Shown here: piece by piece, positions 341-50,426 of the stretch | Layout: the number at the start of each line of letters is the position of its first letter | Numbering within the stretch: the first letter of the stretch is position 1 | Source: Onthophagus taurus | Lineage: Eukaryota > Arthropoda > Insecta > Coleoptera > Scarabaeidae | Length of the DNA: 64,000 nt | NCBI RefSeq assembly: GCF_036711975.1 | Contig: NC_091976.1 | Coordinates: 16,802,001-16,866,000, forward strand | Direction of reading: 5' to 3' | The notes under the pieces: model-generated | Seen by the model: only the letters and a program-made list of their open reading frames with translations | Told to the model about the DNA's origin: nothing | Databases searched by the model: none | Translations under genes and position numbers: made by a program

Positions 341-643
341 TTTCGCGTTGACTACAAAAATAAAATTTGCATTTTATTGGTGAAGATCAAATAGAGATAT
401 CGAAAAAGAACTCCTCAATGAGCACTTTTATAGTTTGTCTCATATTTCTCAGCTTCGATCATTCTTTACTTTTAAAACATTCCATGACAAATTTGATTGC
501 TATTATTAAAAATATCAAATACGAACAAATATCAAGATCATTATCAACAACTAATAAGCAAAACCATAAACAACCATAAATATAAAATAAACTGCATATA
601 TGTTCAGTAGTAATTTTTTAGAGATTTTTTTATAATATTCCTT

Positions 644-649
644 TATAAG
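644..649 (+). promoter_or_regulatory. Candidate TATA box of lipocalin 1
   Basis: TATAAG lies 65 bases upstream of the ATG at 709. The same motif sits at the same distance before lipocalin 2 (TATAAATA at 5787). The stretch between box and ATG is strongly conserved between the copies. The position fits a short 5' UTR. The promoter role is inferred from position and conservation only. Confidence 0.4.
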
Positions 650-708
650 TAAGAAACACTGAAAAATTCCACCAGTAGAAAACAAGCTCATTGCTCGATA
701 CCAGCAAC

Positions 709-1477
709 ATGTCTTTTATTTACTGTATTTTCTTGATTATAATTCCAGTTACGTGCAAAAGTATTGACGAGACAAAATGTCTTAACATTCCCTTAATAAA
801 AGATTTTGATATTCGAAAGGTTTATTTATAAATCGCGTTTTTCTCCGAAACATTTTTAAATCATTCTTTTTGTAATAGATGGTTGGTAATTGGGTTTTAC
901 ACGAAGCAGCAGACGAGGAAGAGGTTTTAAAAAAATGTATTTATTACAAAACGAGTCTTGATGCAAACAAAGGGAATACTACATATATAGTAAAACGAAT
1001 TTGGGAGAAGTACGGTGAAAATTATTTTCAAATTTTAAAATTAATACACTTTATTTGTTTGTAGTAACTCAGATTCGTTTAACATGTACCCAGTTAATAA
1101 CACATCAAAATTCGTTACTGAATGGTTGGGGCGTAAGTATATATGTTCAGAGTAATGCGTTCTACTTTAAGGTTAAATATTTTTAGAAATAAGAATGACA
1201 TGGTTGGTTGCTACTGATTACAATAATTATTCTATTTGGTATGTTTGTTATCCAGAAAATCCACAAAACAGTTAAGTACTTATATATTTAATCAACAATA
1301 ATTTTAATCGCTGCTTAATTATTAGGTGCTTTTGGAATTTCTACCAGACTTTTTACAATTAATAATAATGTTATGCAAAAAGCTAAAGAACTTGTAAGAA
1401 AAATTGGATTACATAATTTACTTCCGAGATTACAAAATATTAATCATGAAAATTGTTTTAAGCAATACAAGATTTGA
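709..1477 (+). CDS. Lipocalin (apolipoprotein-D/bilin-binding type), copy 1
   Basis: Five exons: 709-819, 879-1009, 1065-1132, 1187-1270 and 1326-1477. They total 546 bp and encode 181 aa with all phases consistent. The N-terminus is a hydrophobic secretion signal (residues 1 to about 16). G40-N-W42 is the GxW motif of the lipocalin fold. TDYNNYSIWYVC (113-124) is the second conserved lipocalin block, and STR around 137-139 fits the third. The length is typical for a secreted lipocalin. The exon 2 donor at 1010 (AA|GTACG) was chosen over GTGAAA at 1014 because the paralogue lacks the second site and only the first keeps the reading NNSDSFNMYPV. Lipocalins carry small hydrophobic ligands extracellularly; the ligand here is unknown. 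A near-identical paralogue lies 5.1 kb downstream. A poly(A) signal AATAAA is at 1499-1504. Confidence 0.88.
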
Positions 1478-1498
1478 AGTTGTAATCAATGAAAGAAT

Positions 1499-1504
1499 AA
1501 TAAA
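1499..1504 (+). terminator. Poly(A) signal of lipocalin 1
   Basis: AATAAA lies 22 bases after the stop codon. The paralogue has AATAAA at 6665-6670 in the same context. Confidence 0.6.
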
Positions 1505-1539
1505 CAAAAATAATTTGTTATATTTTATTAATTCATGAT

Positions 1540-2060
1540 TAAACATATGTCATTGTACGAATTATATTGTTTCAATCGGAGCTCAAAAGTGTTTGTAGTG
1601 TCCACCGTATTTTTATTGCAATGATACTTGATACAAATTGTTTTTGTCTTTTACCTCACAAAGCACATCTTCGTTGCTCATGTATTAAAATTTTCAAATG
1701 ATGCTTATCGTCAAACTTTAAGTCAAAGCTCACTCATCCACCTAACAGTTTATTCATCCACATTTCCGTTCTTAAGTAATTCAGATACTTAAATGGATCT
1801 GAGAAAATTACACTCACGTATAAGACAACATTATTTCGTAATATTTCCTGCGGCTCAGTTATTTAATTTCATGACAATCTCATAACACGACAAACTGCAC
1901 AAAAAGGATGATTTATCAATATTCTTATTGTACTGTAATAGATTAACTAAATGAGTCTAAATGAATATATTCTTAGTTATTATGACATATGTAACCCGAG
2001 ATGGCTTGCGACCGAGACGTTACTTCAATACTGCTTTGGCATTAAGAGTCAGAATAACAC
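1540..2060. repeat. 3' flank of the lipocalin duplication (copy 1)
   Basis: This non-coding stretch matches about 6700-7240 after the second lipocalin gene, including the motifs ATTGTTTCAATCGGAGC and CCACCT..CAGTTTATTCAT. It is part of the duplicated block and I see no gene in it. Confidence 0.65.
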
Positions 2061-3230
2061 AAGAAACAAAAAGAATTTTGAAAAGACCATAGAGGAAGAA
2101 TAAGAATAAGTAAAGAAAGAAAAATAGAAAAGAAAAGCAGAAAATAATAAAAATAGGAGCCATTCTTCATCGTTCCTGGCTCATTTATTATCATTAAGTT
2201 ATTAAGTAATCTTAAAAGTCTGCTCATTGCAGCAAGGCAGAAAGTATAAAACTATTCAACAGGTTAGGCACACAATACGTAAACGATTTTTTTTAAATCT
2301 CTGGGCGATACTGTGGTATTGTTAGCGTATGTTTTTGCCTAATATTTATGTTGTGAACGTCTGTCCTAAAAGTAATTTTTTTAAACAAATATGGAGGAGA
2401 TTTATTAGTTAAGACCATATGGTAGGAACAAGCAGGTTAGCAGGGATAATTAGTAAAAAAACGTGAAATTGTAAGTAAATTTTTCCAACACCTGCAAAAT
2501 TTTTAATTTTAGTTATATTTACCTGCATTGAGGTTCATATTCTTAGAAAATAAGTTATTAATCTAAAATGAAAAACTTTTTGATACCAGATGAAAATTGA
2601 AATGGCTACACGTCCCGCAATTGGAGAACTCTAGGTACGACGTCCAGCTGACAGCAGAGCATAACTTTGTTATTTTTCGATAAAATCATACAAAAAAAAT
2701 CACAAAAGTTGCTCGAAATATAAACAAAATAATGTTAAAATTTGATTAAATTCTAATTAATTCTTCGTACCCAAAAAAAATCCTAAAAAATCAATGAAAG
2801 TGAGCCTCCTAATGTGGTTTCCCCCCTTAATGTATGAGAGATTTTCTCATATTTTGTTTTTGAACTCTTTGTACTCTTGTTCCGTGGATACTGTCAATAA
2901 ACAGTTCGTACAAAACATCTCCGTAATTATACATTGAGAGAACCACGACATCACATAAACGTATTCAGAGTTTCACCTCCAATAAGTGTCTACTATTCTA
3001 AAGCATTGTTAACGTTATAAATACACGACGCAGAAGATCACCGCATATGTGAACACCAAAATTCCCAACCCAACCTCTCAGCAACTTACAAAATATCACA
3101 GCAATTCATACACTCAAAGTGTCAGTAATCGCACCCAAGACTCTCCGGTTATCAAAGGCCATCACCGATGACTTCGTAAGATTAACAGTTAAGCAGTGCT
3201 TATTAGCCATATCCAAGTGTTTTAGTAATG
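2061..3230. other. AT-rich intergenic stretch with a dispersed repeat
   Basis: No convincing gene. The part at 2255-2440 matches 29370-29520 (AGGCACACAATACGT, GCCTAATATT, GAACGTCT), so it is a dispersed repeat of unknown class. The match resumes on the far side of the 1.5-kb insertion in the second copy, so this copy shows the uninterrupted repeat. The rest is AT-rich without recognisable coding signal. Confidence 0.5.
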
Positions 3231-5000
3231 TTTTAGTCCTGTGCGGTCTCATTGGTCTCATTTACTATGCTTTCCAGATAAATAAAACTTGGAACTGCTT
3301 CAATTTTATCGTCCCCAATCGTCCTGTTTAGTGCTAGCCTGTGTGCTGTCTTCAGGCCCATCTCTTTCTTTTTATATATACTTATACGTAACCCTACACT
3401 ATGTGCAGTCTCCTTCAGTTCGTCATAGCACTCCTTCATTCGTTGTTTGGATCTTCTCGTTATGACGATGTCATCTGCGTATACTGTTGATTTTGTCTCT
3501 TTATACATAGTGCTGCTATTCTGATCTATTTACAACTTATAAAATGATCTTCTGTAGCGGTATATTAAACAATATAGAAGCGAATACATCCGGCTTATCG
3601 TAGGTCTTCCCTGATATCAATACATTCGCTGTACCTACTCTCCACTTTGATTATACCCTTCAAGTTGGTCATCACCATAGTGTCAGATTTACTAATTTAA
3701 AAGGAATTCCTATTTTCTGCATCACCTGCATGACTCTATATAGATAGTGCATCTCAATCAATAGTGTCATAAACTTGCGTAAAGTCTATGAAGATATTAA
3801 ATAGAATGATATCGAATTCTCATGCTTTTTAAATTACCTATCGGCCCGTTAAAAAAAACGATCTGTGGTGGATCTGCCACCTCTAAAGCCACCTTAGTAT
3901 ACCTAAGCCTTAGTATATCGGTTAGGACTTTATATGTGGTTTCGTCAGTTATGCTTATACCCATTTTTATGTAGGCAATCTGTAGGCATCTACTCAGCCT
4001 TCCAGATTTTCACCATAAGTTGATGTATGACCACCATGAGCTCCTCATCTCCATACTACAGTAGCTCTGGTGCCTTATTACGTTTTAGCATCTTTATGCT
4101 ACATTTTACCTCATTCAAGCTGGAAAAAGATTCGCAAAGGAGCCCCTCAAAATACTGCTTCTAGCTATCCAGCAACTAATCTGTATTTACCAATATATCA
4201 TCTTTCACGATCCTACACATGGCTTGGCAATTATTATTTATTATTACTGCCTAGGCTGGTATATGTTACCAGTTTTCTTTATACTACAACATAGAAATTT
4301 CTGTTAGGAGTCTGTTTCTTATCTTAAAATTCTGGTGCTGTGTTTAGTAGTTGTTGCTTTTTCCGCCTGCAAATGTGATTTGGGTCGTTGTATCATTCTT
4401 TGTCGCGCCTTGTTTCATTTGTCATTAGTCACCTTGCTTTCCTTGCCATTCCAATCGTTCCTCTTTACCCCTTCTAGAGTTCCAACTACTTCTTCGACAA
4501 TATATTACAGCATCGTTTGTTTAATGGTTGCCCTGCAAGAATCTATTGACCTCATTTCTTCCTCCTTAACTTCCAGGTTTCGTAGTTGTTCCCTAACTCT
4601 AGGCTTATAATTAAGTTGGGTTTCCAAATACATTTGTTGTATATTGTACTTCTTAGCTTTGTCAGCTGCTTTGTTAGCTTGCAGCAAACTATACTAACTT
4701 CTCTCCACTGTTATTCGTTTCTTGGTACAGACTATATCGGCAAACTATATGGGAGTATTCTTCCTCTCTACCTACTTATGCATTGAGATATCCGATTATC
4801 AATTTGATATCATTAGCTTGCACTTTAGCAAATTCGTATTTATTACCACTTCCATCACGACAATATATTGTATGCTGCCCTGTTGTCAAGGCCATCTTAA
4901 TTCTTGCAAAGCCGTGACATCCAGTCTGTACTTATCATTTCCATAAAGTATGTTTGCGAGCGCTCCAGCTTGGTACAGGATCCGTCTGCCGTAATCGTTT
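3230..5000 (-). mobile_element. Degenerate non-LTR retrotransposon (endonuclease and RT)
   Basis: Read 5' to 3' on the - strand. At 4990-4690 there are endonuclease pieces (KYRLDVTALQELRW, IIGYLNA, ETNNSGEKLV). At 4687-4505 there is a linker with VREQLRNLEVKEEE. At about 4060-3700 there are RT pieces (KIWKAEKMP, LFNIFIDFTQVYDTID, the latter equivalent to IDFxxAYDxI). At 3508-3233 there is the catalytic YADDI box followed by ITRRSKQRMKECYDELK and VGLRIS. Many stops and frameshifts make it non-functional. It sits between the two lipocalin genes and probably belongs to the same family as the fragment at 1-340. Confidence 0.75.
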
Positions 5001-5004
5001 CCGA

Positions 5005-5541
5005 GAAATCCGTCCTGTCCAAGACACATTTGTTGGTCTTATAATTGGTGTTTTTTTTTTGTGGATCGGAGGATCATTTTTCCTGCACTCCATTGCCCTG
5101 ACCTTACCTTTCACCGAGGTTAGTTACTCACTCTACAGAAGTTTATTCAGATTGATAGGTTGAGAGACATTATGCCTCCTCCTTCAAAACTAGCCATTGC
5201 TGAAAATTGAAAAAAAATTTCTCAATGAACAACGTCTCCACCTTTACACGTTGCCTGCCATGTGGCTGGATGTGCCATAAATAATTTTTTGTAGACTTGG
5301 TACAGATATTGTGCCACTGGCAATTTTTGATAAACTATGGTAGTGGTCCAGGAGATCCAAAATATAAATAGACTGTGGCAGTTAATGTGTTAACGAAAGT
5401 TTGTCTCATATTTTAACGTCAAAAACTTCAGTTTCGATCATTCTATACTTTTCTAAAACATTCCATGATGAATTTGATTGCTATTATTAAAAATATCATA
5501 TCAAATACGAACAAATATGTTGTTGTTTACTTTTGTTAGAT
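5005..5541. other. Non-coding stretch before lipocalin 2
   Basis: No gene seen. From about 5400 the sequence matches the 5' flank of lipocalin 1 (about 430-550), so the upstream part of the duplication starts here. The part at 5180-5400 is unexplained. Confidence 0.4.
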
Positions 5542-5840
5542 CATTATCAACAACTAATAAGCAAAAGCATAGAATAAATTGCATATATTTTCAGTACATG
5601 CTCATATTTTTTAGAGATTTTTTATCACATTCCTTTATAAGTAAGAAACACTGAAATATACCACCAGTAGAAAACAAGCTCATTGCTCATTATCAACAAC
5701 TAATAAGAAAAACCATAAATATAGAATAAACTGCATATACTATATATGTTCAGTAATTGTTTAGAGATTTTTTTATCACATTCGTTTATAAATAAGAAAC
5801 ACTGAAAAATTCCGCCAGTAGAAAACAAGCTGATTGCTCG
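5542..5840 (+). repeat. Tandem duplication of the lipocalin 2 promoter region
   Basis: Unit a (5542-5687) and unit b (5688 to about 5840) both begin CATTATCAACAACTAATAAG and both contain the TATA-like TTTATAA, the AAGAAACACTGAAA segment and CCAGTAGAAAACAAGC. Lipocalin 1 has a single copy. Lipocalin 2 therefore has two candidate core promoters, with TATA boxes at 5636 and 5787. Confidence 0.75.
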
Positions 5841-5851
5841 TTACTGCCAAC

Positions 5852-6624
5852 ATGTTTTTTATTTACTATATTTTCATGGTTATAATTACAGTTACGTGCA
5901 AAAGTATTGACGAGAAAAAATGTGTTAACATTCCCTTAATAAAAGATTTTGATATTCGAAAGGTTTGTTTATAAATCACGTTTTTTCTCAGAAACATTTT
6001 TAAATCATTTTTTTATAATAGATGGTTGGTAATTGGATTTTACACGAAATGGCAAACAAGGAAGAAGTTTTAAAAAAATGTATTTATTATAAAGCGAGTC
6101 TTGATGTTAACAAATCGAATACTACATATATGGTAGAACGTATTTGGGAGAAGTACTACGAAAATTATTTTAAAATTTTAAAATTAATACATTTTATTTG
6201 TTTGTAGTAACTCAGATTCGTATAACATGTACCCAGTTAATAACACATCAAAATTCGTTACTGAATGGTTGGGACGTAAGCATATATGTTAAGATTAATA
6301 CGTTCTACTTTAAGGTTAAATATTTTTAGAAATAAGAATTACATGGTTGGTTGCTACTGATTACAATAATTATTCTATTTGGTATGTTTGTTATCCAGAA
6401 AATCCACAAAACAGTTAAGTACTTATATTTAATATCTCTCTTATATTTAATCAATAATATTTTTTATCGCTACTTCATTATTAGGTGTTCTTGGAATCTC
6501 TACCAGACAATTTACAATTAATAATAATGTTATGCAAACAGCTAAAGAAATTGCAAGAAAAATTGGATTACATGATTTACTTCCGAGATTAAAAAATATT
6601 AATCATGAAAATTGTGTTAATTAA
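5852..6624 (+). CDS. Lipocalin (apolipoprotein-D/bilin-binding type), copy 2
   Basis: Five exons: 5852-5962, 6022-6152, 6208-6275, 6330-6413 and 6485-6624. The CDS is 534 bp and encodes 177 aa. Exon lengths and phases match copy 1 except the last exon, which ends earlier (NHENCVN then stop). It has a signal peptide (MFFIYYIFMVIITVTC), the GNW motif, ATDYNNYSIWYVC, and ISTR in the last exon. Every splice site is conserved with copy 1 and there is no disabling change, so it is probably functional. It arose by the same tandem duplication. A poly(A) signal is at 6665-6670. The ligand is unknown. Confidence 0.88.
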
Positions 6625-7194
6625 TAAGTACAATAAGATTTGCAGTTTTAATCAATGAAAGATGAATAAACAAAAATACTTTGTTATATTTTATTAATTC
6701 ATGGTTGTAAACATATTTCGTTGTATTGTTTCAATCGGAGCTTATAAGTGTTTGTGGTGTTCATCATATTTTCATTGCACTGATACTTGATACAAATTCT
6801 TTTTGTCTTTTGCATCACAAAGCACATCTTTGTTGCTCATATATTGAAATTATTATAAAATATTGGTTATCGTCACACTTTAAATCCAAGCTCACTCATC
6901 CACCTTACAGTTTATTCATTCCTATTTCCCTTCTTGTAAGTAATTCAGATGCTTAAATGGATCTGGGAAAATTAGTCACGGAAAGCTACGTAAAAGATAA
7001 CATCATTTCGTAATATTTTCTGCAGGTGAGTTATTTAAATTCATAACACGACAAACTGCACAAGAAGGATGATTTATCAATATTCCTATTGTACTCTAAT
7101 AGATTAACTAAATGAGTTACCTTGATAGCTCTCAATTTTTAACTATCTTTATTGTACCCACTCGGTAACAACAAGAATATAAGCAAGAATATAT

Positions 7195-9883: not shown

Positions 9884-11799
9884 TTAAAACAATTTCACCA
9901 CATAAATCAATTTGATGATCATCGATTGGATGCACTGTATAATTTCTGATGATGTAGCTAAGTAAAAATTTCGATTCGACAATTTTATTGCAACTATTTT
10001 ACCTAAAAAATTAATAAAAAAAATAAGATATTAAGTGAATTTTATTATTTCTAATATTCTTACCTATACAATCTCGCGGTCCTAATGAAAAAGGAAAATA
10101 AGCATTTGCTGGGATATTGGAGGCATTTTCTGGAAGAAATCTTTCCGGTTTAAACTCCGCGGGATCATCAAAATTTGAATAGTGGGAATCGATTATTGAA
10201 AATATAATATCGATATCACCAGGAACAATTTTACCACCTATAAAAATAATTAATAAAAGAAATCGTTACTTTTCAATTAATTTACCAATTTCTGTTGAAT
10301 TAAATAGAGCCCTAAAAATAAAGGGAACTGGAGGATAAAGTCTTAAACTTTCTTTTATAACGCATTCAGTAAAAGTCATTTGTTGGATATCCCTAAACTC
10401 TGCACACACATTCTTATCGGTTCCTAAAATGGAAATATATTCCTGGTAAATTTTTTCTTGCAATTCAGGTTTTTTAGCAAGTTCATAAAGAGCAAAACCA
10501 GATGAAGCTGAAACGGTATCGGAACCCTACAACAAAAACGTTTTAAAAAACAAAAATAATAAACCAACAGCAAAATATTACAGCAACGGCTAAAGTCCGA
10601 ATGTTTTCTAAAATCCTATCATAGCTCAAATTAGATTCTAAAAGTAAATCAACAAAATCCTTTCGATCACTTTTTCCCGATGTATTGTTCTTTTTTAATT
10701 CAATAACTTGTTTTAATGTACTTTCAATGAATTTCTTGGATTCAATAGAAGTATTAGTCCAAATTTTATAATTTTCGGTTAATTTAAATATGCTATCAAT
10801 CATTTTCAGAGGAGAGTTAATTCTATCATAATACACCCCAAAAAATGTTCTCAAAGATTTCATGTAACGGTTTACACGATCATCTTGTTTACTAATATCT
10901 TCATTAAGTAATAAATCTAGAAAAAAAATATTTATAAGAAAATAATGAAAAATAAGAATTAAAATTATAAAAATTAGCTTTATTCAGAAATCGATACTAA
11001 AATACTTATATTAATGATGAAAATATTATTAAAAATGTTTCATTCCTAGTCATAAGATAGAGGATAGACTAGTTTCAACTAGATTTTGACCCGAACCACC
11101 AAAGATTAGAGGTTACCAGATCGCAGTTAGAGGCCACTTTACGAATGATGATAATTTGTCTGTCCTAGAGTAGTTTACCATCATGCCTGCACATGCAAGC
11201 CAAAATAGGCGAGGATTCTTCATTATGTAGGGATTCTCGCGTATTAAACATAAGAATGGTGCATACAAAGAAAATTTTCCTTGCCATCGGCTTAGTGCGA
11301 GCATACAACCAAGTCCTTTACTCGAAAAATTCAACCCATCGGAAAATATTCATATCCGAAGTTAACATAAGAATATCAGAATAAATCTTAAGCAACTGTA
11401 CGAAAATTAGCTTAACCTACTTTGCAGGCGTACGCAGCACTAATGTTTCACCTCGCGTAACGACTCCAATTTCGCAGTTGGAGCAGCCATAGAATAATAT
11501 GCTGATAGAGTATGTCAACCACTGGGTTTCTTCTATATAAAGTGCTGGCAGAGAAATATTATGTACAAAAAACGACGATTTGGCAGAATTCTTGGAACCA
11601 GATTCAATTTTCAACCTAAAGAGGGTAACAATCTCAGGAATCAACGATCTTTCATACTTTACATATTCATTCGAACAACATGCAATTCTTGTTATGTGAC
11701 GTATAAAATCGGATTTTAAGAAATGAGACCGGTATGTTTACACGCTTGAATTCGCCTGAAATTTTATGCAAGTATCGTGGTCAAGTACCAAAAATCGTT

Positions 11800-13970: not shown

Positions 13971-15389
13971 CACGTTTTGTTTAATTATGCACAAATTGAT
14001 AAATAAAATTGTTATGAACATTATTCTAATAATTGTTCTGAACGGATACCAAGATATCGATTCTTAAACTGAAAATTGAGTTTTGAATTGATGATTGCAA
14101 AATCAACCTTTGATTTAAAGTGAATTTAGAAAATTTAATCCAATTATATTAATATTGTTTTGTTTAAATTATTTTGTGAATTCAAATTAAAGATTATATT
14201 TTTTGCATAAATTTCAACGATAATAACATTATCGTTGAAATATTCTTTGTATATTTAATCAATGCCATGAAAGAAGATTGTGCAACAGAAATTTGCATAC
14301 TTTAATTATAAAACTATTTATCTATCTGATATTGACCTTCTTTCTTTCTGTTCTTAATTCATGTAGATCGCAGGTCCAAAGTTGAATCAATTTTTTTCTC
14401 GATTATCTTTTAAGATTAAGAGATCAACTTAATGGTACATTAATTAAAGTTAAATCTTTAATGAATTTTTAAAAAAATGTACGTGTTATGAACTTTAATA
14501 CTTAAATACTATTTATTTACCGTAAACAATATTTAATCCATGACGTAATATTAGTACTTGCAAATCAACTGGTTTATTTAAATTTTCGTTTATCGCTTCG
14601 CTCAATTTAATAGCGTGTGTTTTGAACGTTGATATATAATCGATGATGAATTGGTTGTTGAAAACGTGTGAAAACGTTTTTCGTTCTTGTCTCCATAAAC
14701 TTACTAAAAATAAATATTTTTAGATTTGTTCTATTCTTAAAACTTAAAGTTATTTAGTGATTGGTATTAATTACTATCGCTCATAAGGGGTAATCCATCT
14801 CCTACAAACGTTCGTAATAAACCAAAATATCCCGTTTTGTTAACGTGTTCTTTCGATAATAAAATGTTCTTAACAAATTTTCCATCGGAAACGAGAAGAG
14901 ATGGTCTAAAAGGTTTTATCCAAATTTTAACAACTGGACCATATTTCTTGCTTAAAGAAACGAAGAATTCATAAGTATCTAAAAAAAATATACCATATTT
15001 AACACCAATAAAACAATTAAAATATAAAATCGAAAACTTACCAGTTGTTGATTTTGGTAATAACATAAATTTGATTAATTCTAAGGGTGTTGGCCCAGGA
15101 TAATCATCAAGTACTTTGTATTTATTTACTTGATAAAAATAATACAGTATTGTAATAAAAAGTAAAAGTGTAAAGGGTATCACAAACATTTTCGCTAAAA
15201 TTTCTATGATTCAATTGAGCAAAGATTAGAAATGAACTGATTATGTCTATCGCTTTTTGGCGATATTATTTCTATTTAGAAAAAGAATTTATTGAGAGTT
15301 ATCAATAGATGCTAAAGTTTGACCTTTTTAATTAAATTTTAAGCGAAAATGTATCAATTTCAAAATGTTTGATTAAAAATAAATTTTAT

Positions 15390-19692: not shown

Positions 19693-21493
19693 TTATTCGA
19701 TTATTCTTCTTTTAAAAATAACTGGTAATCCATTTTTGCTTGTTAAAACCACTTCACCAGCTATATCTGCTTTATGATCATTGATTGGATGTAATGTAAA
19801 ATGCCTCACAATATAGCTAATTAAAAATTTAACTTCAGCAACTGCAACTATTTTACCTAAAAATGTTAACGAAAAATTATAAATAAATATTTAGTGAATA
19901 TGTGAATTGGTTACCTATGCAATCTCTTGGTCCCAACGAAAATGGTAAATAAGCATTTGCTGGGATTTTGGTGGAATTTTCTGGAAGAAATCTTTCGGGT
20001 TTAAACTTTGTGGGGTCTTCAAAATTTAAATAATGAGACCCGATTATTGAAAAGGTTACATCGATGTCACCCGGAAGAACTTTATCATCTAAAAAAATTT
20101 TTATTAAAAAGCTGATCTGCTAGAGAATTAATTTACCGATTTCTGCCGGTTTAATTAAAGTTCTAAATATAAATGGAACTGGAGGATAAAGTCTTAAACT
20201 TTCTTTCATAACGCAATCAGCAAAACTCATTTGTTGAATATCCCTAAATTCTGCAAAAACCTTTTCGTCGAACCCTACAATCGAAATGTATTCCTGAAAA
20301 ATTTTTTCTTGTAATTCAGGTTGTTTAGCAAGTTCATAAAGAGCAAAACCAGTTGCAGCTGAAACTGTATCGGAACCCTTCAAAAAATAATTAAAAACTA
20401 ATATAATGTAACAAGAGCAAATAATTACAGCAACAACAAATGTTCGAAGATGCGCTAAAATTCTATCATAACTCAAACCAGATTCTAAAAGTAAATCAAT
20501 AAAATCTTTTCGAAAACTTTCATTCGGCGATTTATTTTTTAATTCGACAACTGTTTTTAAAGTACTTTCAATAAATTCCGTAGCTTCCTCAGAACATTTG
20601 TTCCAAATTTTATAATTATTGGTTAATTTAAATATGTTATCGTTCATTTTCAATGGGGAATTGATTCTATCAAAATAAACTTCGAAAAATGTTTTCAAAG
20701 CTGTGCTATAACGATTTACACGATCATCTTGGTTACTAATATCTTCATTAAGTAATATTTCTAGAAAAAAAAATTTTTTTGATGCATAAATACTTATTGT
20801 ATTTTTTACCATAAACAATGTTTAATCCATGTCTTAATAACAACATTTGCAAATCAACGGGTTGATTTAAATTTTCATTAATCGCATCGCGCAGTTTAAT
20901 GGCGTGTGTTTTAATTGTTGATATATAATCGATGTTGAATTGATTATTAAATACGTGTGAAATCGTTTTTCGTTCTTGTCTCCATAAATTTACTAAAAAA
21001 AAAATTTTTGACTTCAATATCTAAATAACAATAAGAGATGTTAAGAGGTTATTTAGAATTTTAGATAACTCAGTGTAAAACGTAATTACTATCGCTCATA
21101 ATGGGTAATCCGTTTCCTATAAATGCTTCCAATAATTCAAATAAACTCGCTTTATTAACATGTTCTTTCGATAATAAAATATGTTTAATAAATTTTTCAT
21201 CGGAAACGAGGAGAGTTGGTTTAAAAGGTTTGATCCATATTTTAACAACTGGTCCATATTTGTTGTTTAAAGAAACGAAGAATTTATAAGAGTCTAAAAA
21301 GAATATGTTTCAAAATAAAATTAAATCACAAAATTAAGAACTTACCAACAGTCGATTTCGGTAATAATACAAATTTTAATAACTCTAATGGAGTTGGTCC
21401 AGGATAATCATCAATTATCTTGTACTTACTTACTTGATAAAAGCAATAAAGGCTAATAAAAAATATTAAACCCATAACAAGTATCAACAACAT
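19693..21493 (-). CDS. Cytochrome P450, clan-4 type, copy B (intact)
   Basis: Seven exons on the - strand: 21493-21346, 21293-21090, 20992-20810, 20760-20429, 20377-20137, 20088-19915 and 19856-19693. They total 1446 bp and encode 481 aa with every phase consistent and GT/AG ends. It has an N-terminal signal anchor (about residues 2-20), then DYPGPTPLELLKF, an I-helix oxygen-binding motif GSDTVSA (290-296, with the acid-alcohol pair D-T), ExxR in KESLRLYPP (348-351), PERF (about 400-403) and haem-binding [10 protein letters not shown], with the thiolate Cys near 426. This is the pattern of an ER-bound microsomal monooxygenase that takes electrons from NADPH-P450 reductase. The CYP4-clan assignment is by overall pattern; family and substrate are unknown. 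It is very close to copy C, including in its introns. Confidence 0.9.
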
Positions 21494-23399: not shown

Positions 23400-24690
23400 C
23401 TCTTCTTAGACTTAATGCAATGTTTAAGTGCTATTGATGATTACAGAACAGAAACGAACGTAAAGAAACTTTAACGTTCAAAAATGTTGCCATCAACAGC
23501 CACACACCTTCTTGCTCGCCTCCTTACAGCATTAACTGCACGACGAATTTCGTTAGCGCTAATGCTTAGATCACACGTAACGAGTGCAGTGGCGAGACAG
23601 TAAAATGACACTAGGCCGAGAGAGTAGCGTGGCACTCGGTCCAGTAAATAGAATAGGGTCCGGATAGGGTCCGAATAGGACCTAGGCTTAAAGCTTAGGT
23701 CACACGTAACGAGTACAGTGGCGAGACAGTGTACTCGGCCGAGTCCTCGGTTGGTATTAACATATTACCGAGTGCTCGGCCGAGCGCTCGACCTAGTACC
23801 AGGGCGAGACAGTCACTCGGACCCTATTCTATTTACTGGACCGAGTGCCACGCTACTCTCTCGGTCTAGTGTCATTTTACTGTCTCGCCACTGTACTCGT
23901 TACGTGTGACCTAGGCTTAATGGGCTGGCATGGTCGACGAATTCGGAGTTTCATATTCTCCCTTGTTGTAGGCGGTTCCATGTTGACTATTTCTTTTATT
24001 CGGTTCCACAGGAAAAAGTCCAGTGGAGTTAAATCACGTGATCGAGGTGGCTATTCCACAGAACCCCCACGACCAATCCAACGCATGGGACAATGCCGGT
24101 CAATTACCCTACGTGCAACAACTGCAAAACGTGAAGGACACCCATGGTGTTGATACCACATTGTTGTCCCTGCAAGTAAGGACACATCGTCCAAATAGTA
24201 AATGTTCAGCACATTTTGTACAAATTGGGCGTATGTTTCTCCATTTAGAGCCGTATCAAAGAAATGTGGACCAATTATTTACTCTCCTATAATACTACAC
24301 CACGTGTTGAGGATCCATAAGTGTTGATTGTCAACATATCTCACCCAATACGGATTTTCCCTTGCCCAGTTGTGGGTGTTATGAAGATTTACCTCTCCAT
24401 TACTTTTAAAAAGCGATTCATCGGTCCAAAGAACAAGTCTAGGAAAATCGTCGGCTTGATCCAAAATCCAATTACAAAATGCCAGCCTTCTTTCAAAATC
24501 TCGTCCACCAAGAGTGTGATGGACACTAAGATGGTATGGATGCAAACGATTTTCCTTTAATATTCTCCATACTGTTGATTGGCTTAAGTCTATCGAAATC
24601 CGGCATGTAGAAACGTGTGGATTCAAGTTCACCGCTTCCAGAACGTCAGCAGTACTTTCCTCTCTTCTGACTCTTCGAATCAGCAAGCCT
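23400..24690 (-). pseudogene. Tc1/mariner-like transposase pseudogene (carrying a MITE)
   Basis: On the - strand, 24686-24279 reads a nearly clean transposase segment: STADVLEAVNLNPHVSTCRI, STVWRILKENRLHPYHL, LVLWTDESLFKSNGEVNLHN (first catalytic Asp) and LWILNTWC. Further on, in other frames, are GPHFFDTALNGETYAQFV and the AGTTMWYQHDGCP region (second Asp), and then the C-terminal end near 23470-23560, which is split off by the palindromic element at 23567-23915. A possible element end is GGGTGATTCAGACCACCCGT at about 23195. It is inactive. Confidence 0.75.
23567..23915. mobile_element. Palindromic MITE
   Basis: About 95 bp at 23570-23670 (CACACGTAACGAGTGCAGTG, GGCACTCGGTCCAGTAAATA) recur as the reverse complement at 23820-23915. 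A third copy of the outer motif (TAGGTCACACGTAACGAGTA) sits in the middle at about 23697, as if two elements were fused or nested. It is GC-richer than its surroundings and has no ORF. It interrupts the Tc1-like transposase. The target-site duplication was not resolved. Confidence 0.8.
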
Positions 24691-24739
24691 TTGTTCTGAG
24701 TTAACAGTGACCTTTATAAATTCATCCATGATTATGATG

Positions 24740-31524: not shown

Positions 31525-33334
31525 TTATTCGATTATTCTTTTTTTAAAAATAACTGGTAAACCATTTTTGCTTGTTAAAACCACTTCACCAGCTATATCT
31601 GCTTTATGATCATTGATTGGATGTAATGTAAAATGCCTCATTATGTAACTAATTAAAAATTTAACTTCGGCAATTGCAACTATTTTACCTAAAAATGTTA
31701 ATGAAAAATTATAAATAAATATTTAGTGACTATATATTGGTTACCTATGCAATCTCTTGGTCCCAACGAAAATGGTAAATAAGCATTTGCTGGGATTTTG
31801 GTGGCATTTTCTGGAAGAAATCTTTCGGGTTTAAACTTTGTGGGTTCTTCAAAATTTAAATAATGAGACCCGATTATTGAAAAGACTAAATCGGTGTCAC
31901 CCGGAAAAACTTTATCACCTAAAAAATTTTTATTAAAAAGCTAATCTGTTATAGAATTAATTTACCGATTTCTGCCGATTTAATTAAAGTTCTAGAAATA
32001 AATGGAAATGGAGGATAAAGTCTTAAAGTTTCTTTCATAACGCAATCAGCAAAACTCATTTGTTGAATATCGCTAAATTCTGCAAAAACGTTTTCGTCAA
32101 CACCTACAATCGAAATGTATTCCTGATAAATTCTTTCTTGTAATTCTGGGTGTTTAGCAAGTTCATAAAGAGCAAAACCAGTTGCAGCTGAAACTGTATC
32201 GGAACCCTTCAAAAAAATGATTAAGAACTAAAATAATGTAACATGAGCAAATAATTACAGCAACAACTAATGTTCGAAGCTGCGCTAAAATTCTATCATA
32301 ACTCAAACCAGATTCTAAAAGTAAATCAATAAAATCTTTTCGATCATTTTTATTCGGCGATTTCTTTTTTAATTCGATAACTGTTTTTAAAGTACTTTCA
32401 ATAAATTCTTTAGCTTCTTCAGAACATTTCGTCCAAATTTTATAATTATTGGTTAATTTAAATATGATATCGTTAATCTTCAATGGGGAATTAATTCTAT
32501 CGAAATAAACTTCGAAAAATGTTTTCAAAGCTGTGCTATAACGATTTACACGATCATCTTGGTTGCTAATATCTTCATTAAGTAATAAATCTACAAAAAA
32601 AATGTTTCTTTGATGCGTAAATACTTATTATATTTTTTACCATAAACGATGTTTAATCCATGTCTTAATAACAACATTTGCAAATCAACAGGTTGATTTA
32701 AATTTTTATTAATCGCATCGCGCAGTTTAATGGCGTGTGTTTTAAATGTTGATATATAATCGATGTTGAATTGATTATTAAGTACGTGCGAAATCATTTT
32801 TCGTTCTTGTCTCCATAAATTAACTAAAAAAATTTTTTGATTTCAATTTCTAAATAACTATCTAAATAACAACAAGAAATGTTAAGAGGTTATTCAGGAT
32901 TTTAGATAACTCAGGGTAAAAAGTAATTACTATCGCTCATCATGGGTAATCCGCTTCCTACAAATGCTTCCAATAACTGAAATAAACTTCGTTTATTAAC
33001 ATGTTCTTTCGATAATAAAATATGTTTAATAAATTTTTCATCGGAAACGAGGAGTGTTGGTTTAAAAGGTCTAATCCATATTTTAACAACTGGCCCATAT
33101 TTTTTATTTAAAGAAACGACGAATTTATAAGAATCTAAAAAGAAAATGTTTCAAAATAAAATTAAATCACAAAATTAAAAACTTACCAACAGTCGATTTC
33201 GGTAATAATACAAATTTTAATAACTCTAATGGAGTTGGTCCAGGATAATCATCAATTATCTTGTACTTATTTGTTTGATAAAAGTAATAAAATGTAAAAA
33301 AAGATATTAAACCCATAAAAAGTATCAACAACAT
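31525..33334 (-). CDS. Cytochrome P450, clan-4 type, copy C (intact)
   Basis: Seven exons on the - strand: 33334-33187, 33134-32931, 32823-32641, 32590-32259, 32206-31966, 31918-31745 and 31688-31525. The CDS is 1446 bp and encodes 481 aa, with exon lengths identical to copy B. It keeps the membrane anchor, DDYPGPTPLELLKF, GSDTVSA, KETLRLYPP (copy B has KESLRLYPP), [14 protein letters not shown] and a C-terminus on the B pattern (HPINDHKAD). There are no stops or frameshifts. It differs from B by scattered substitutions, for example KRSLFQLLEAF for KASLFELLEAF and PFPFISRTL for PVPFIFRTL, near likely substrate-recognition regions. That suggests recent duplication with possible divergence of substrate range. 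Substrate unknown. Confidence 0.9.
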
Positions 33335-33599: not shown

Positions 33600-36500
33600 G
33601 TCATAATAATCCGTGTCAGAACAGTAGTGGCCGGGAAAAAAAAGTTAATCTGTTCTTATACTAAACACATTCAAAGGCCATGCTCTACGCAATAAAACTT
33701 CCTTAATCCTAGTTACAAAAGCTTTAAATGTTAAATTCCTATAACTACCAGGCAGACTATTAAAAAATTTTACTCCATAATAATTATACCCCCCCTCCTA
33801 GTTTTGTAATTGTGAAAATCACCATTTTTTTTTTAGTTGACTATGAAGTAATATTGTAAACTTCAAACATTCAAAGATATATAATGAAGGCAGTGTCAAA
33901 ATTTTTTAATTGATAAAAGAAGAGCGGCAGTCTTCAGTATAGTTTAATTTGACGATATTTCTAATGGCTCTTCTTTGTATACTAAATATTCTTTTATTAT
34001 ATTCTTTATTATGACTCTGAAAAGCACAAAATCGTGCGCAATACCTCCGTAGAAGAAAATTCAGAAAGACGTCTTAACAAAAAGGCTGTGGAGCTTAAAC
34101 GAGAAGTTAAAGCTTCGCCATGAAAACTCCAGGTAAGTCCGCAGTCTCAACATGCACACTCAGAAATCTGAAACTATCATCAGAATCCAAACTTGTACTA
34201 TGTGCTTCAGTAAAAAGGTCATTGATACTATTTTATCATTATTCAACCTTAGCTGATTACTTGCACAAATGTCTAGCCGAAATAGACATTAAATTATTAT
34301 TTTCGGTAGCTTTTGCTTTAGATGAATGTTTATTTAATAAACTTGTGTCATCGGCATACAAAATTGATTTTGCAGGATTCAAAAATGACGGCAACTAATT
34401 GACCAATGGGGAACCCACTATCAATTTCTATTTGTAAGATATGATGATAGAAGTTTACATGCCTCTGGGGTGACATTATACGCGTACAATTTACGAATTA
34501 AAATTGAATGAGATACACAATCAAAAGCTTTTGTGAGATCCAAGAAACTTGCTTCGGTGTATTGTGAAGTCTCGAAACCATCGACTGCATACTCAATAAA
34601 GCTTTGTATAGCTGTAGCGGTTGGACTTTCTCTTTCTAAAACCAAATTGTTGTTTATTAAAAATATTACTATCTTCAAAATATAGATATAGATACAAAAT
34701 ATAGATAGCAGAAGAGGAGATGGAAGCAGTGCTTAGGGGATTGAAGAAGGGAAAGGTGTCAGGGGAAGATGGCATCCAGAACGAGGCATGGTTGGAAGCA
34801 TCAAGGGTGGTGAGAGTGAAGTTGTTAGAGGGGATGAATAGCGTATGGAGACGGGGGGGATTCCGGAGGGATGGAAAGTGGGGGTAATTTGCCCAGTATA
34901 TAAAAAGGGTAATAAGGGAAGGGAAGAAAGCTACAGAGGAATTAACCTACTAGACTCGGCATACAAGATATACACGAAGATACTGCTGGGAAGACTGGAG
35001 GAGGAGATGGAGTTGGGGGGAATTTTTCCGGATGGGCAGGCAGGCTTTCGGAAGGGAAGGGCATCTGGCGGATAGAGAGCTGGATAAGAAGGGAGAGAAA
35101 TTGTACGCCCTGTTTATAGATTTGAAGGCGGCTTTTGATAAGGTGGATAGGGGAAAGTTGTGGGAGGAGATGGGGAGGAGGGGGATCACGGAACATCTAA
35201 TTGCGAGAGTGAAGGAAATATACATGGAGGCTATGGCTAGGATAAAAGTGGGAGATAAGCTGAGCGACGTGTTTTGGACGACGAAGGGACTGAGGCAGGG
35301 ATGTCCGCTGAGCCCAAGTCTGTTTGCACTGTATACGGCGGACCTGGAGGATAGATTGGGGAAGGGGCAAATGGGAGGGTTGGTGGTGGGAGGTAGAAAG
35401 GTGCATATGTTAGCATACGCGGATGACATCGTGGTCATGGCGAGAGAAGCGGCGGAGATGAAAGATATGATAAAGACATTGGAAAGATATTTTAGGGGGA
35501 AGGGGCTGGAAGTAAATGTGGGGAAGACAAGGATGATGAAGTTTTGTAAGGGGGGGAGAAAAAGAACAGAAAACTGGAGATGGGAGGGAAAAGAGATCGA
35601 GGAGGTTAGGGAGGATACTTACTTGGGGTATGTGTTCAGGGAGAACAACAGGGAGGGGTCGCATGTGATAGCTATGGCAAAAAAGGCGAATAAGGTGATG
35701 GGACAAGTATGGGGTTGGGGGAAGAGAGTCTTTGGAAGGAATGTTTCAGCGAGGAAGATTATGTTTGAAGGTCTGGTTAGCAGTGTGATGATGTATGGAG
35801 CAGAGGTATGGGGATGGAGAGAGCAGGCAATGCTGGAGGACGTGCAAGCTAGATACTGGAGATGGGTGCTTGGGGTAGCGAGAGAAACGCCGGGGTATAT
35901 AGTGAGGGAAGAGGTAAAGGTGGATAAAGTCAGAGTGGAGGGGGGCAGGAGAGCAGTGAAATATGAAGAAAGAATAGAAGGGAGGCCAAACTGCGGGATC
36001 TTGGGGGAGTGTTGGGGGGAAATTAGAGAGGGAAAGATCAAATATGGGAAAGGAGACAGAGACAACTATTATAGACGAGCGGGCTACTCGGTAACTGAGA
36101 TAAATAGTAGACGAAGGGTGAGTAGGGAGATGTGGAGGGAGTTGAGAGATAGGGACCGAGATGTGCAGAGACAGGAAAGAAGGACACAAATAAAAGAGGG
36201 GAGGTATAACGAAAGGTACAGGGACATAATTACGGAGGGGCTGCCTAGATACTTGTTATTGGAAGGAGATGAGGAAAGGAAGAAGTTGGTGGCTAGGTTC
36301 CGTTGTGGAAACGAGGAGAGAGCGAACAGATACTGGATGGCCGATGAGGAGAGGTAGTGTAGGCTATGCAGGGAGAAATGGGAAACGTTGGAACATATGT
36401 TGAATGGGTGCAGTGAGTTGAGGGAGGAGGAGTGGGACCGAGGGCAGATCTTAGGAGAGGGGGGAGAGGGGAAACGATGGATGAGAATGGTTGTGGGGGT

Positions 36501-45228: not shown

Positions 45229-46690
45229 AGGGTGACTGGTACATAAACATGAATATTGAAATACGTTGTTCTAGAGCTCACTTGTAATTGATTAAGCTAA
45301 ATATGCCTTATAGAAAAGTGAATAATTTAGAAAATATGTCAATTTTTTGCTTTTTGTACAAGTTCAGTACATAATCTTACAAATCTTGAAATTTAGAGAG
45401 TAATAATAGTGTCTTTGGCAATGTGTCGACTTCTCTGGATAGATTACATCCTAATACACATTTAAAGTCAAGAAATACTGTAAATATTTCGATGGTTTCA
45501 AAATACAGGAAGTGAAATATTCGGTTTTTAAGTTAATTGTCAAACAAAGTGTTTATTCATGAGCGTCTATTTCAAAATATCGATGATACATTCAGCATAC
45601 AAATTATTGTAAAAACTTCTCTGTTTTATTACCTTTCGAATGAGGTATGAAGCATGGCAAAATGTCTTTCCAATTAGCCAATAATAAGATAACGATTGGC
45701 GCGAGCACAATTTTGACAACCTATCCAATGTGAATAAAATTCTAAATCGATTACACCTGCGGTTGAAATTCAATTCATTAATGGTTAACAACCATCGGTT
45801 AAACAATTTTTTTACGTTTTGGTAGTAAGCCATGGAATTTAGACAGTTTTTTCGTTAATATTGTTTATTTTTATTTGAATAAAATTTTGGTTAAAATGTC
45901 ATTGTTTACAAATGATGAGTATGCCGACATCCTATTTATTTACGGTTTCTGTGACGGAAACGCATCAGCCGCTCATCGAGAATATCAGCAACGCTATCCA
46001 AATCGACGAATTCCTCATATTAGTGTATTTGGCGCCACTTATCGACGTTTAGCTGAGATTGGCAATTTAGTGTAGGACGTGCTGGATTTAATGTGGAAGA
46101 AGACATTTTGGAAACATTCGATGAAGCATCCACATGCAGTACAAGAAACGTCGCTGCTAATTTGGGGATATCACAATAAAAGTCTGGTCAACTCTTCGAC
46201 AAATGGGCAACCATCCTTATCATTATACACCTGTCCAGGCACTTGAAGACGGCGATCCTGAACGGAGGATTCAATTTTGCCGGTTTCTTTTAAATGCTGA
46301 CATTCAGGATGAATATTTCTTGAGAACGATTTTATGGACCGACGAATCGAAGTTTAACAGAGGAGGTATAACAAATCTTCATAATTTACATTATTGGACT
46401 GACGAAAATCCTTATCTAATGAAGGAAACGAGCAACCAAAGAAAATTTAGTGTGAATGTGTGGATAGGGCTCATTGGAAATAATTTGATTGGTCCTCATT
46501 TTTTTCCAGATCATTTAAATGGCGCAACGTATGGTGATTTTTTACATAATAATTTAATAGAAATGCTGGACCGTGTACCTTAAAAAACAGGAATAACTTG
46601 GTTTTCCAACATGATGGATGCCCTGCGCACTATTCGCAAAATTTGCGAAATTCATTAAATGAATTATTTCCTAACCATTCCTGATTTCGT
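45229..46690 (+). pseudogene. Tc1/mariner-like element (DUF4817-type), 3'-truncated
   Basis: A terminal-repeat-like ACAGGGTGACTGGTACATAA lies at 45229. The + strand ORF begins at 45896 and reads MSLFTNDEYADILFIYGFCD, GNASAAHREYQQRYPNRRIP and ISVFGATYRRLAEIGN, the N-terminal helix-turn-helix of DUF4817-type transposases. After stops come MGNHPYHYTPVQALEDGDPE, RTILWTDESKFNRGG (first catalytic Asp), FSVNVWIGLIGNNLIGPHFF and VFQHDGCPAHYSQNL (second Asp). It breaks off at about 46690, where a non-LTR fragment begins, so the third catalytic residue is missing. Confidence 0.8.
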
Positions 46691-47744: not shown

Positions 47745-47753
47745 AGCATTAGA
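47745..47753. repeat. 9-bp target-site duplication, left
   Basis: AGCATTAGA directly abuts the left terminal inverted repeat. It is identical to 50418-50426, directly after the right repeat. Confidence 0.85.
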
Positions 47754-50417
47754 ACCTCTCTTAAGCTGGCAGGACCATAATAGCAGAACCGATTGAGACC
47801 TATTGGATTATTTAGTACTTATTTTGTACTAATTTGTAGTTGTAATTTGACTTTTTGTCATTAAAGAGAAACTCGTGGCGCTGCTAGCTTAATATTAAGC
47901 TAGCAGGACCACTTCAAAAAAAAGACGTAAAAAAATAAAACAAAGGTGGATTTGAGAAGAGCTGAATTTGTACTAATTCGTACCACCGATAAAAAGTGTG
48001 TACTATGTACCGTTAAAGAGAAACGCGTGGCGCTGCTAGCTTAATGTTAAGCTAGCAGGACCACTTTTAAAAAAACTTAAAAAAATAAAAGAAAGGTGGA
48101 TTTAAGAAGATCTGAATTTGTACTAATTTGTACCACCGATAAAAAATGTGTACTATATGCAGTTAATAAAATGCGGGGGCGGTAGTTTAATACTAAAACC
48201 TACCAGCTTCAAGTGCACCAGTGGAAAGTGAGTTTAATAAATTAAAAACATTATTACTAAAAAATTGTTCATTACTGCGCATTGATGATTTTATACAGAA
48301 ACACGTACAATATTTACGTGGTGCACTGAAAATTGTCGACGCGGAAAGCAATATTAACAATACATATATATATCGCCTGCAGATTCGGAAGATTCTAACG
48401 TCAGTTTAATATCAGATCTGAATAATTCATGTCCTGCATTCAAAAATAATAGTAAACCGTCCGGTACATACCTTTGTCAAATCTGTAAGAAATCTGTCCA
48501 TGCATTACCTCAATGCTCCACATCGTATGACAATTTTGAAGATGGCTATGGTCAATGTCGTATATGCATAATGTGCAGAGATAATGTGCAAAATGCGAAA
48601 GTCATAATCGGAAGCCGCCAACAAGAAAATTGGCGTGGGCAGATAAAACAAAATAAAAATAAGAATTTATGCCTTGGAAAAATCCACATAAGATAATAGA
48701 CGCTCTTACAGCAAAAAAGGCTGCAAAATTACCAATTTTAAAAAAAGGTATAATATTTCTTTAAATGCAGTGAAAATTGAAAGCGGCAGTTACACCGTTA
48801 GTAACACTTGTGCATTTGATAGCATATTATTAATTTTATTTGCAGCGGGGCATGATTTGCCTAATAATTGTTTTTCAAATTAATTATTTATGCGATAAAG
48901 AACGGCATTAGCCAGTATGTTTATAAATTGCGCGCGCAAATTTTATTGGAAACATATCCGGTATCTGATATAGGAGGGTGTAAAAACATAAATTCTGAAA
49001 CGAATGTAGGGTATTTAGCTGGCATATTATTTAAAGAAACACCCAGTTTTAAAGAAACAACTCAATGTAACTATGATCGCGCCACGATATAAAAAGTTGT
49101 CAGTGATTCAAATAGAAGACACAAAAATTATGGACGATACTAACTTTAATAAAGTTATCGCGCAAAGTTTACACCTACCCGACCACCGTTGCTGCACAGA
49201 ATTCTGTGTTGGAATTGAAAAAACCACGCTGTCTGAAACAGGCGAGTATTTTACATTTTAAAAATAAATATCAACATTACAATAGCATGTAAAGTTTCTG
49301 AAACGAAAGATATTGGACGTTAAATCATATTTATTGAATATACCTGCTAGCGTTGTCTCTGTTTCCATCGACTATGAATAAGGACGTACTCCTTACTTAG
49401 TCAACACTGACTGGATCGGTTAGTTAGCGGTTAATTTGTTTCAGAAACCAGCCGTAGTTCTGTTTCTTCGTTTACTAAAAAAATAACTTAATTACTTATT
49501 TTAATTGCGCTGGTTATATTGTTTCAGGAGACATTATAATTTTCGAAATATTCACAACAAGTACAGGTATTCAAATAAGGATTGCGGATATTAATAAAAC
49601 CTGCAGCAATCCCCAAAACGGAAACACTTATAGTTTAATTGGAATAGTTTCTTATAAAGAGCCCGTGATAACAAGGCTAAATGAAAGTATAGTGTTAAAA
49701 CAAATGGGACACTACACGGGAGTATATTTAAGAGACTTTAACAGACCTTAACAAAAAAGAAATAATTCTTAAAAACAATGCAAAAATAACACCAGCATTA
49801 TTAATATACGCCAAGCAGAATAGTTGTTAATTTTATTTGTGCAATATATTTAAGCAGTCATTATTATTTCTTGTTGATTGTTATTATAAATGACATGTAA
49901 AGGTTTTGTCATTGTATTAATATATACAATAAATATTAATATATTTATTGTTTTACATTGTTACAATAAAGATTCTTTTATAAATAATATTTTTTTACGC
50001 AGTGCATTTGTTATATTTTCCGTCCCCGCATATTCTTAAGTGCATATAGTACACATTTTTTATGGTTGGTACAAATTAGTACAAATTCAGATCTTCTTAA
50101 ATCCACCTTTCTTTTATTTTTTTAAGTTTTTTTTTAAGTGGTCCTGCTGGCTTAATATTAAGCTAGCAGCGCCACGTGTTTCTCTTTAACGGTACATAGT
50201 ATACACTTTTTATCGGTGGTACAAATTCAGCTCTTCTCAAATCCACCTTTGTTTTATTTTTATACGTCTTTTTTTTGAAGTGGTCCTGCTAGCTTAATAT
50301 TAAGCTAGCAGCGCCATGAGTTTCTCTTTAATGGCAAATTAGTACAAAATAAGTACTAAATAATCCAATAGGTCTCAATCGGTTCTGCCATTATGGTCCT
50401 GCCAGCTTAAGAGAGGT
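47754..50417 (+). mobile_element. Mutator-like transposon (MULE), complete ends, decayed coding region
   Basis: 2,664 bp. The TIRs start ACCTCTCTTAAGCTGGCAGG: left at 47754 to about 48185, right about 50019-50417. A 9-bp TSD and long TIRs are the hallmark of the Mutator superfamily. The + strand coding pieces, in order, are these. SSAPVESEFNKLKTLLLKN and LRIDDFIQKHVQYLRG, at 48206-48409, possibly the end of a transposase. A Cys-rich segment LCQICKKSVHALPQCSTSYD..YGQCRICIMC at about 48472-48580. A box SYTVSNTCAFDSILLILFAA at 48788-48847. ISQYVYKLRAQILLETYPVS, DIGGCKNINSETNVGYL, and TPSFKETTQC. Then NTYSLIGIVSYKEP, MGHYTGVYLRDF and ITPALLIYAKQ at 49628-49828. Stops and shifts make it inactive. 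The DDE catalytic core is not seen and is probably deleted, so this may be an internally deleted copy. Confidence 0.8.
47881..47906. repeat. 26-bp palindrome within the MULE inverted repeat
   Basis: A perfect palindrome: CTGCTAGCTTAAT followed by its own reverse complement. It recurs at 48033-48058 (central mismatch), 50144-50169 (one arm mismatch) and 50286-50311 (perfect), each within a repeat of about 150 bp. Four spaced palindromes at the element ends suggest transposase-binding or structure-forming sites. Confidence 0.8.
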
Positions 50418-50426
50418 AGCATTAGA
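50418..50426. repeat. 9-bp target-site duplication, right
   Basis: AGCATTAGA, identical to 47745-47753. Confidence 0.85.

Follow-up and report, generated by a model that had tools for sequence, protein, structure and literature searches.

The terminal-inverted-repeat (TIR) element at positions 47754-50417 of a 64,000-nucleotide stretch of the Onthophagus taurus genome (hereafter the window, meaning that whole stretch) raises the question of whether an animal DNA transposon can encode its own ubiquitin-specific-protease (USP)-like domain of peptidase family C19. We examined the element together with its relatives in the same genome, grouped as families A, B and C. The best explanation, to which we assign a probability of roughly 0.85 from sequence comparison, is that the element in the window is a defunct copy of a cut-and-paste DNA transposon, family A, whose better-preserved relatives encode a putative DDE-type transposase and a C-terminal C19/USP-like peptidase in one protein.

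The element is bounded by TIRs of about 400-430 bp, built from three pairs of inverted arms that are 99% (47754-47836/50335-50417), 89% (47824-47973/50219-50368) and 94% (47975-48182/50020-50227) complementary. Its ends are as follows.

47745..47753, no strand: left target-site duplication (TSD) AGCATTAGA, read from the sequence
47754..48182, plus: left TIR, starting ACCTCTCTTAAGC and containing 150-bp tandem units, from inverted-repeat comparison
47861..48156, plus: tandem array inside the left TIR, 2.0 copies of the 150-bp unit
50020..50417, plus: right TIR, from inverted-repeat comparison
50418..50426, no strand: right TSD AGCATTAGA, read from the sequence

The target site lies inside a 12-bp tandem repeat and the string common to both flanks is 12 bp long; because the target is itself a repeat, the window copy alone does not fix the length of the TSD. 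Nine base pairs are backed by copy L026, with the 9-bp ACCGTATTG directly outside both ends, and by the family C element L073, with the 9-bp TSD TGGTTTCAG. A TSD was thus present in three of the six element copies checked (the window copy, L026 and L073) and was not seen in L027/29, L035 and L036, the last two of which have one or both ends poorly defined. A preliminary description had taken this locus for a whole element with long TIRs and a 9-bp TSD, and so it proved. MULE TSDs span 8-11 bp and accompany long TIRs; here we find 9 bp in those three copies and TIRs of about 400-913 bp.

Several other features lie in the window. Two cytochrome P450 gene pieces (20120-20821 and 32163-32624, minus strand; Pfam p450) and two frames that look alike by eye and have no Pfam match (10543-10983 and 14767-15210, the second resembling a P450 N terminus) perhaps form a P450 gene cluster. 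A 467-amino-acid frame with a reverse transcriptase domain (34954-36357, plus strand; RVT_1, E = 5.2e-26) is perhaps a non-LTR-type element. Tc1/mariner-like transposase pieces occur at 24279-24713 (minus strand; a Tc3_2 helix-turn-helix below the cut-off) and at 46161-46583 (plus strand; recognized by eye only, with no Pfam match).

Between the TIRs, the translated open reading frames are short and change phase, and transposase motifs D1 and D2 were not seen in this coding part. The window copy is a dead relic of family A, internally deleted or 5'-deleted. Its parts run in the order transposase remnant, Cys-rich finger, Cys box, middle part, likely GC-AG intron and His box, with the E-motif remnant SSAPVESEFNKLK adjoining the left TIR on its inner side.

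48197..48409, plus: transposase C-terminal remnant with putative E motif SSAPVESEFNKLK, homologous to a 575-amino-acid frame in L065
48358..48696, plus: Cys-rich zinc finger (Pfam Znf_SCAND3, E = 8.5e-6); the frame continues to the ENWRG motif
48797..48823, plus: USP-like Cys box VSNTCAFDS, Cys codon 48809-48811, from translation with relatives aligned
48868..49092, plus: middle part of the USP-like domain, with 31-36% identity to 22 places of family B
49019..49241, plus: continuation of the USP-like domain up to a predicted splice donor, from translation with the splice site predicted
49242..49527, plus: predicted GC-AG intron CAG|GCGAGT ... TTTCAG|GA, frame-preserving
49528..49751, plus: exon with the USP-like His box YSLIGIVSY..MGHYTGVYLR, His codon 49710-49712, from translation
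49732..49830, plus: C-terminal strand ..NKKEIIL..ITPALLIYAK in a different frame (relic), from translation

The codons named for the candidate catalytic residues read as claimed, TGT for Cys (48809-48811) and CAC for His (49710-49712), and the Cys-rich segment reported ahead of the boxes is the zinc finger at 48358-48696, nearest to Znf_SCAND3 at 26.1 bits, just below the curated cut-off of 27. The claimed gap of about 300 codons between Cys and His holds for the DNA and not for the protein, where the spacing is about 200 amino acids because a likely 286-bp GC-AG intron, predicted from its borders, sits inside the gap. The predicted intron stretch recurs in L034 and, by its 3' end, in L028.

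A DNA search of the genome with the window element returned 40 matching pieces in roughly ten places. The middle piece, used as a protein query, returned 25 matches, comprising three family A places (91-99% identity) and 22 family B places (31-36% identity). The family A TIR element L036 contains a D2 region that matches the family C protein, and upstream of family A copy L034 there is a match to the same protein that takes in both D1 and D2, which argues that family A, too, was once a transposase-plus-peptidase element. Family A has altered finger cysteines, and its copy L028 carries Tyr in place of His (GYY), where the window copy keeps GHY.

Family B provides an uninterrupted 575-amino-acid frame (L058/L065) that runs from transposase through SSAVESDFNDLK to the USP-like domain at its end. 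In L065 the D1/D2 part lies further upstream, cut off by an insertion (L065 1307-3690) that splits the family B transposase gene. The inserted element has inverted arms of 457 nt, 95% identical, and its frames appear mariner-like by eye. A genome search with the family B protein gave at least 78 matches, a lower bound from scoring 76 of 385 candidates; all but two are confined to residue 304 onward, and many of these 3'-part pieces are partial or contain stops. In some family B copies, L041 and L049, part of the USP-like coding sequence is also present upstream in inverted orientation (about 206 nt, 86-87%), as if the foldback arms had extended into the gene.

Family C was found as a match to the family B protein, with 28% identity over residues 7-560. 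Its representative, L073, is a complete element of 6486 bp (411-6896) with 913-bp TIRs that contain 162-bp tandem units and are 99.3% identical to each other, a minisatellite between TIR and gene, and a 917-amino-acid frame free of stops. An additional 151-amino-acid frame overlaps the 5' end of the long frame and is perhaps joined to it by splicing or separated from it through a frameshift. Along the family C protein we located DATGS at 240, DFSKA at 310, SVEAAF at 526, TCAFDS at 654, CSHC at 758, CKKC at 802, GHYTAY at 876 and WMLYDD at 888. Searching the genome with this protein gave at least 45 matches (50 of 234 candidates scored); among the matches listed were a second family C copy, interrupted by stops, of which three parts match at 97, 95 and 83%, and other transposase relatives at 35-45%. 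In both B and C, transposase sequence runs into the USP-like domain in one frame, and no finger was seen between the E motif and the Cys box. The putative transposase motifs of these better-preserved relatives are D1 IDATGS, D2 DFSKA and E SSSVEAAF.

The order of motifs in the B and C domains is Cys, CxxC, CxxC, His, Asp/Asn. C19 peptidases have the order Cys, CxxC, CxxC, His, Asp, and the two-CxxC fingers between the boxes do not occur in every USP. The Cys box reads NTCAFDS in family A, N[TI]CGFDS in B and ETCAFDS in C; the intervening fingers are CNNC/CKKC in B and CSHC/CKKC in C. Both families have the His box YxLxG...GHYxA followed by W..[FY][DN]D, a motif that places Asp or Asn 15 residues after the His; family B has Asn at this third catalytic position. 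Identity between families in this domain is 24-28%. Across the aligned rows F-D-S is invariant and Cys is retained in all eight (A, B and C); His is retained in all seven B and C rows, the family A row (L028) having Tyr.

We compared profiles of the domain by hhalign with seven USP domains of the same genome, taken from seven of the loci among its 45 Pfam UCH matches. The B+C profile matched them at 95.5% (E = 1.6e-8, score 62.6), the A+B+C profile at 94.6% (score 58.8) and family C alone at 32.6% (score 33.3; best of 100 shuffles, 22.5). An earlier A+B profile had reached 91.2% (score 50.9), against 21.4 for the best of 200 column shuffles and 16.4 for the profile read in reverse; family A alone scored 19.7 (1.0%). 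The match spans the fingers to the C terminus, with the Cys box outside it. Compared with the genome's own segments of other families, the same profiles reached at most 0.5% for OTU (four segments), 0.5% for C48/Ulp1 (five) and 0.2% for MULE (nine). In a search of 177635 distinct PDB sequences, profile A2, built from four sequences, gave two matches up to E = 10, both to USP8 at E = 0.015 and both aligning the Cys and His boxes with their counterparts; this match is weak, as 0.015 applies to the whole sequence, the His-box stretch alone giving 0.27-0.3 and the Cys box 2.1 bits.

Single sequences are less telling. No single family B or C protein reached the curated cut-off of Pfam UCH, family B and C places are absent among the genome's 45 UCH matches, and an HMM of the seven host USPs had no match in families B and C. 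Profile A1 gave no PDB matches; single-protein PDB searches, in one of which the query started just after the Cys, returned only a coronavirus spike (E = 0.86) and MreC (E = 0.3), both of which we regard as chance matches. An NCBIfam search gave chance-like matches only (E = 0.075 and 0.2), and no relative was found in the viral contigs and phage records searched. Scanned alone, the His box picks out the best site in both C and B, with a score that, among 2000 shuffles, 1 reached for C and 24 for B; the Cys box likewise picks out the best site in B and C, where its score is not significant (reached by 357 and 457 of 2000 shuffles). A chance motif match is rejected by the shuffles and by conservation in relatives. 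Together the comparisons support reading the domain as a distant C19 homologue. The preliminary description had suggested C19 likeness and named its absence, or loss of the Cys and His, as counter-evidence; we instead find the USP match at 95% with OTU and Ulp1 at background, Cys in 8/8 rows and His in 7/7 B and C rows, with Tyr in the family A row.

The coding sequences also bear on whether the domain mattered to the element. Comparing L058 with nine other family B copies over single-frame parts of the domain (150-251 codons), we obtained dN/dS values of 0.22-0.35; these values contrast family B subgroups and sample 10 of 22 family B loci, and a single long branch is common to all nine, which are not independent of each other. 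When non-autonomous or broken copies were paired with one another, three such pairs (two in B, one in A) gave 0.72-0.74. The USP-like domain in family B has been under past purifying selection. Such low values, together with the kept Cys, F-D-S and His, would not be expected of a chance passenger. MULEs are known to capture gene pieces (PMC6446971, PMC8277862, as far as the available text goes), and one could picture the peptidase as a host gene fragment caught by chance in the manner of a Pack-MULE; that nearly all of the family B matches, many of them broken, fall in the 3' part would suit such passenger DNA. We consider this quite improbable, since B and C share order and frame behind the E motif while having diverged to 28% identity over residues 7-560, and since dN/dS is low. 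Recent capture of a host gene is rejected on the same frame and order in two families and on the low dN/dS. More improbable still is a likeness to a different papain-like peptidase family, be it OTU, Ulp1 or the Helitron VTD, in place of C19: these are the families described in transposons (PMC2836005 and PMC9741609, in the parts available), but OTU and Ulp1 profiles score at background, on which ground both identities are rejected, and VTD is set apart by an active site described as Asp-x-His (PMC9741609, in part), against Asp or Asn 15 residues after the His here.

What the domain does is a finer question, and DDE catalysis, peptidase activity, substrate and benefit to transposition are all what we infer from sequence. 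In the mechanism we propose, the transposase would bind the long, repeat-rich TIRs, excise the element and insert it through a 9-bp staggered cut. The attached peptidase, most likely acting in cis on the transposase complex, would take off ubiquitin, or a ubiquitin-like protein, attached to the transposase or to local chromatin or repair proteins, letting the complex survive or repair go ahead. The preliminary description had suggested, as a possible purpose, that transposase is protected from host turnover. We tentatively suggest, at somewhat worse than even odds, that family C has been mobile recently and makes a single-chain transposase-deubiquitinase with a catalytically active USP-like domain, and that efficient transposition depends on this domain to keep the transposase or repair machinery ubiquitin-free. 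Rather unlikely, in our judgement, is a descendant of the USP fold that no longer cuts ubiquitin and instead binds ubiquitin or chromatin, or, in the manner of USPL1, has SUMO or a different ubiquitin-like protein as its substrate. The strong divergence from USPs, the failure of single sequences to reach Pfam UCH, the altered finger cysteines of family A and the Asn of family B would all fit such a descendant; yet the same Asn occurs in a host USP (L068), and Cys in 8/8 rows and His in 7/7 B and C rows persist despite 24-28% identity between families.

As to the transposon class, the element had been called Mutator-like. Its TSD and TIR anatomy agrees, and the DDE part matches MULE segments by hhalign weakly (9%, score 22.9) but above all of 100 shuffles (at most 19.4); against this, hmmscan of the family B and C proteins gave no match to Pfam MULE (PF10551), and the places of families A-C are absent among the genome's 18 PF10551 matches. 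Because Pfam MULE is silent and the MULE profile match weak, whereas TSD, TIRs and minisatellite fit Rehavkus and foldback elements, the element is best read from its sequence as foldback-type and Rehavkus/MULE-like, assigned as a member of neither group. Rehavkus, a Repbase group and MULE outgroup, is described, in the part of PMC6446971 available, with a 9-bp TSD, TIRs of 26-400 bp, one ORF, a minisatellite near the TIR and a zinc finger. By that description our families resemble it in the 9-bp TSD, TIRs of about 400-913 bp and, in family C, the minisatellite between TIR and gene; the window element differs in having tandem units only within its TIRs, and the family A Cys-rich finger is nearest Znf_SCAND3, not the PHD finger listed for Rehavkus (PMC6446971). 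The main texts of that paper and of an arthropod MULE survey (PMC13359780) mention neither ubiquitin nor protease nor peptidase. Foldback elements such as Tetris, mostly thought to be Mutator-related, have long TIRs with internal tandem repeats and 8-10-bp TSDs (PMC4079207, in part). Our families share long, repeat-rich TIRs and TSD size with Tetris and the Drosophila Foldback (FB) elements; unlike them, Tetris has no apparent coding capacity, and the main text of PMC4079207 does not mention a protease.

Several unrelated transposons carry peptidases that act on ubiquitin or SUMO (Ulp1, OTU, VTD). Proposed roles include action on repair factors and protection of proteins needed for transposition (PMC2836005, PMC9741609, in the parts available). 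A further example, in which a foldback-type transposase is joined to a USP-class domain retained by purifying selection, would suggest that control by ubiquitin is an obstacle to transposition in general, and family C offers a testable pair of domains in a single frame. The O. taurus genome also gave 48 matches to Ulp1-type (C48) peptidases; some of these sit in frames as long as 1436 amino acids and may represent a separate group of peptidase-bearing transposons, unrelated to the one described here. None of the titles and abstract openings listed in searches of the open-licence literature, which excludes Repbase reports, presents a C19 domain on an animal TIR transposon. According to the available part of PMC2836005, Ginger1 and Mutator elements carry OTU or Ulp1 domains; they share with our families a transposon protein bearing a deubiquitinase- or deSUMOylase-type peptidase domain, and differ in peptidase family and, for Ginger, in an integrase-like transposase. 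The same source lists a Trichomonas protein, XP_001314237.1, that joins transposase_11 to Peptidase C19, which shares the transposase-C19 pairing but belongs to another transposase family and to a protist, and is described there with no element boundaries. Helitrons carry VTD or OTU deubiquitinases, with activity demonstrated for VTDs (PMC9741609, in part); they too have a deubiquitinase on a transposon, but are rolling-circle elements, and VTD has the Asp-x-His active site. The principle is thus already known, and the combination of a C19 domain with an animal TIR transposon appears, within the reach of these searches, to be new.
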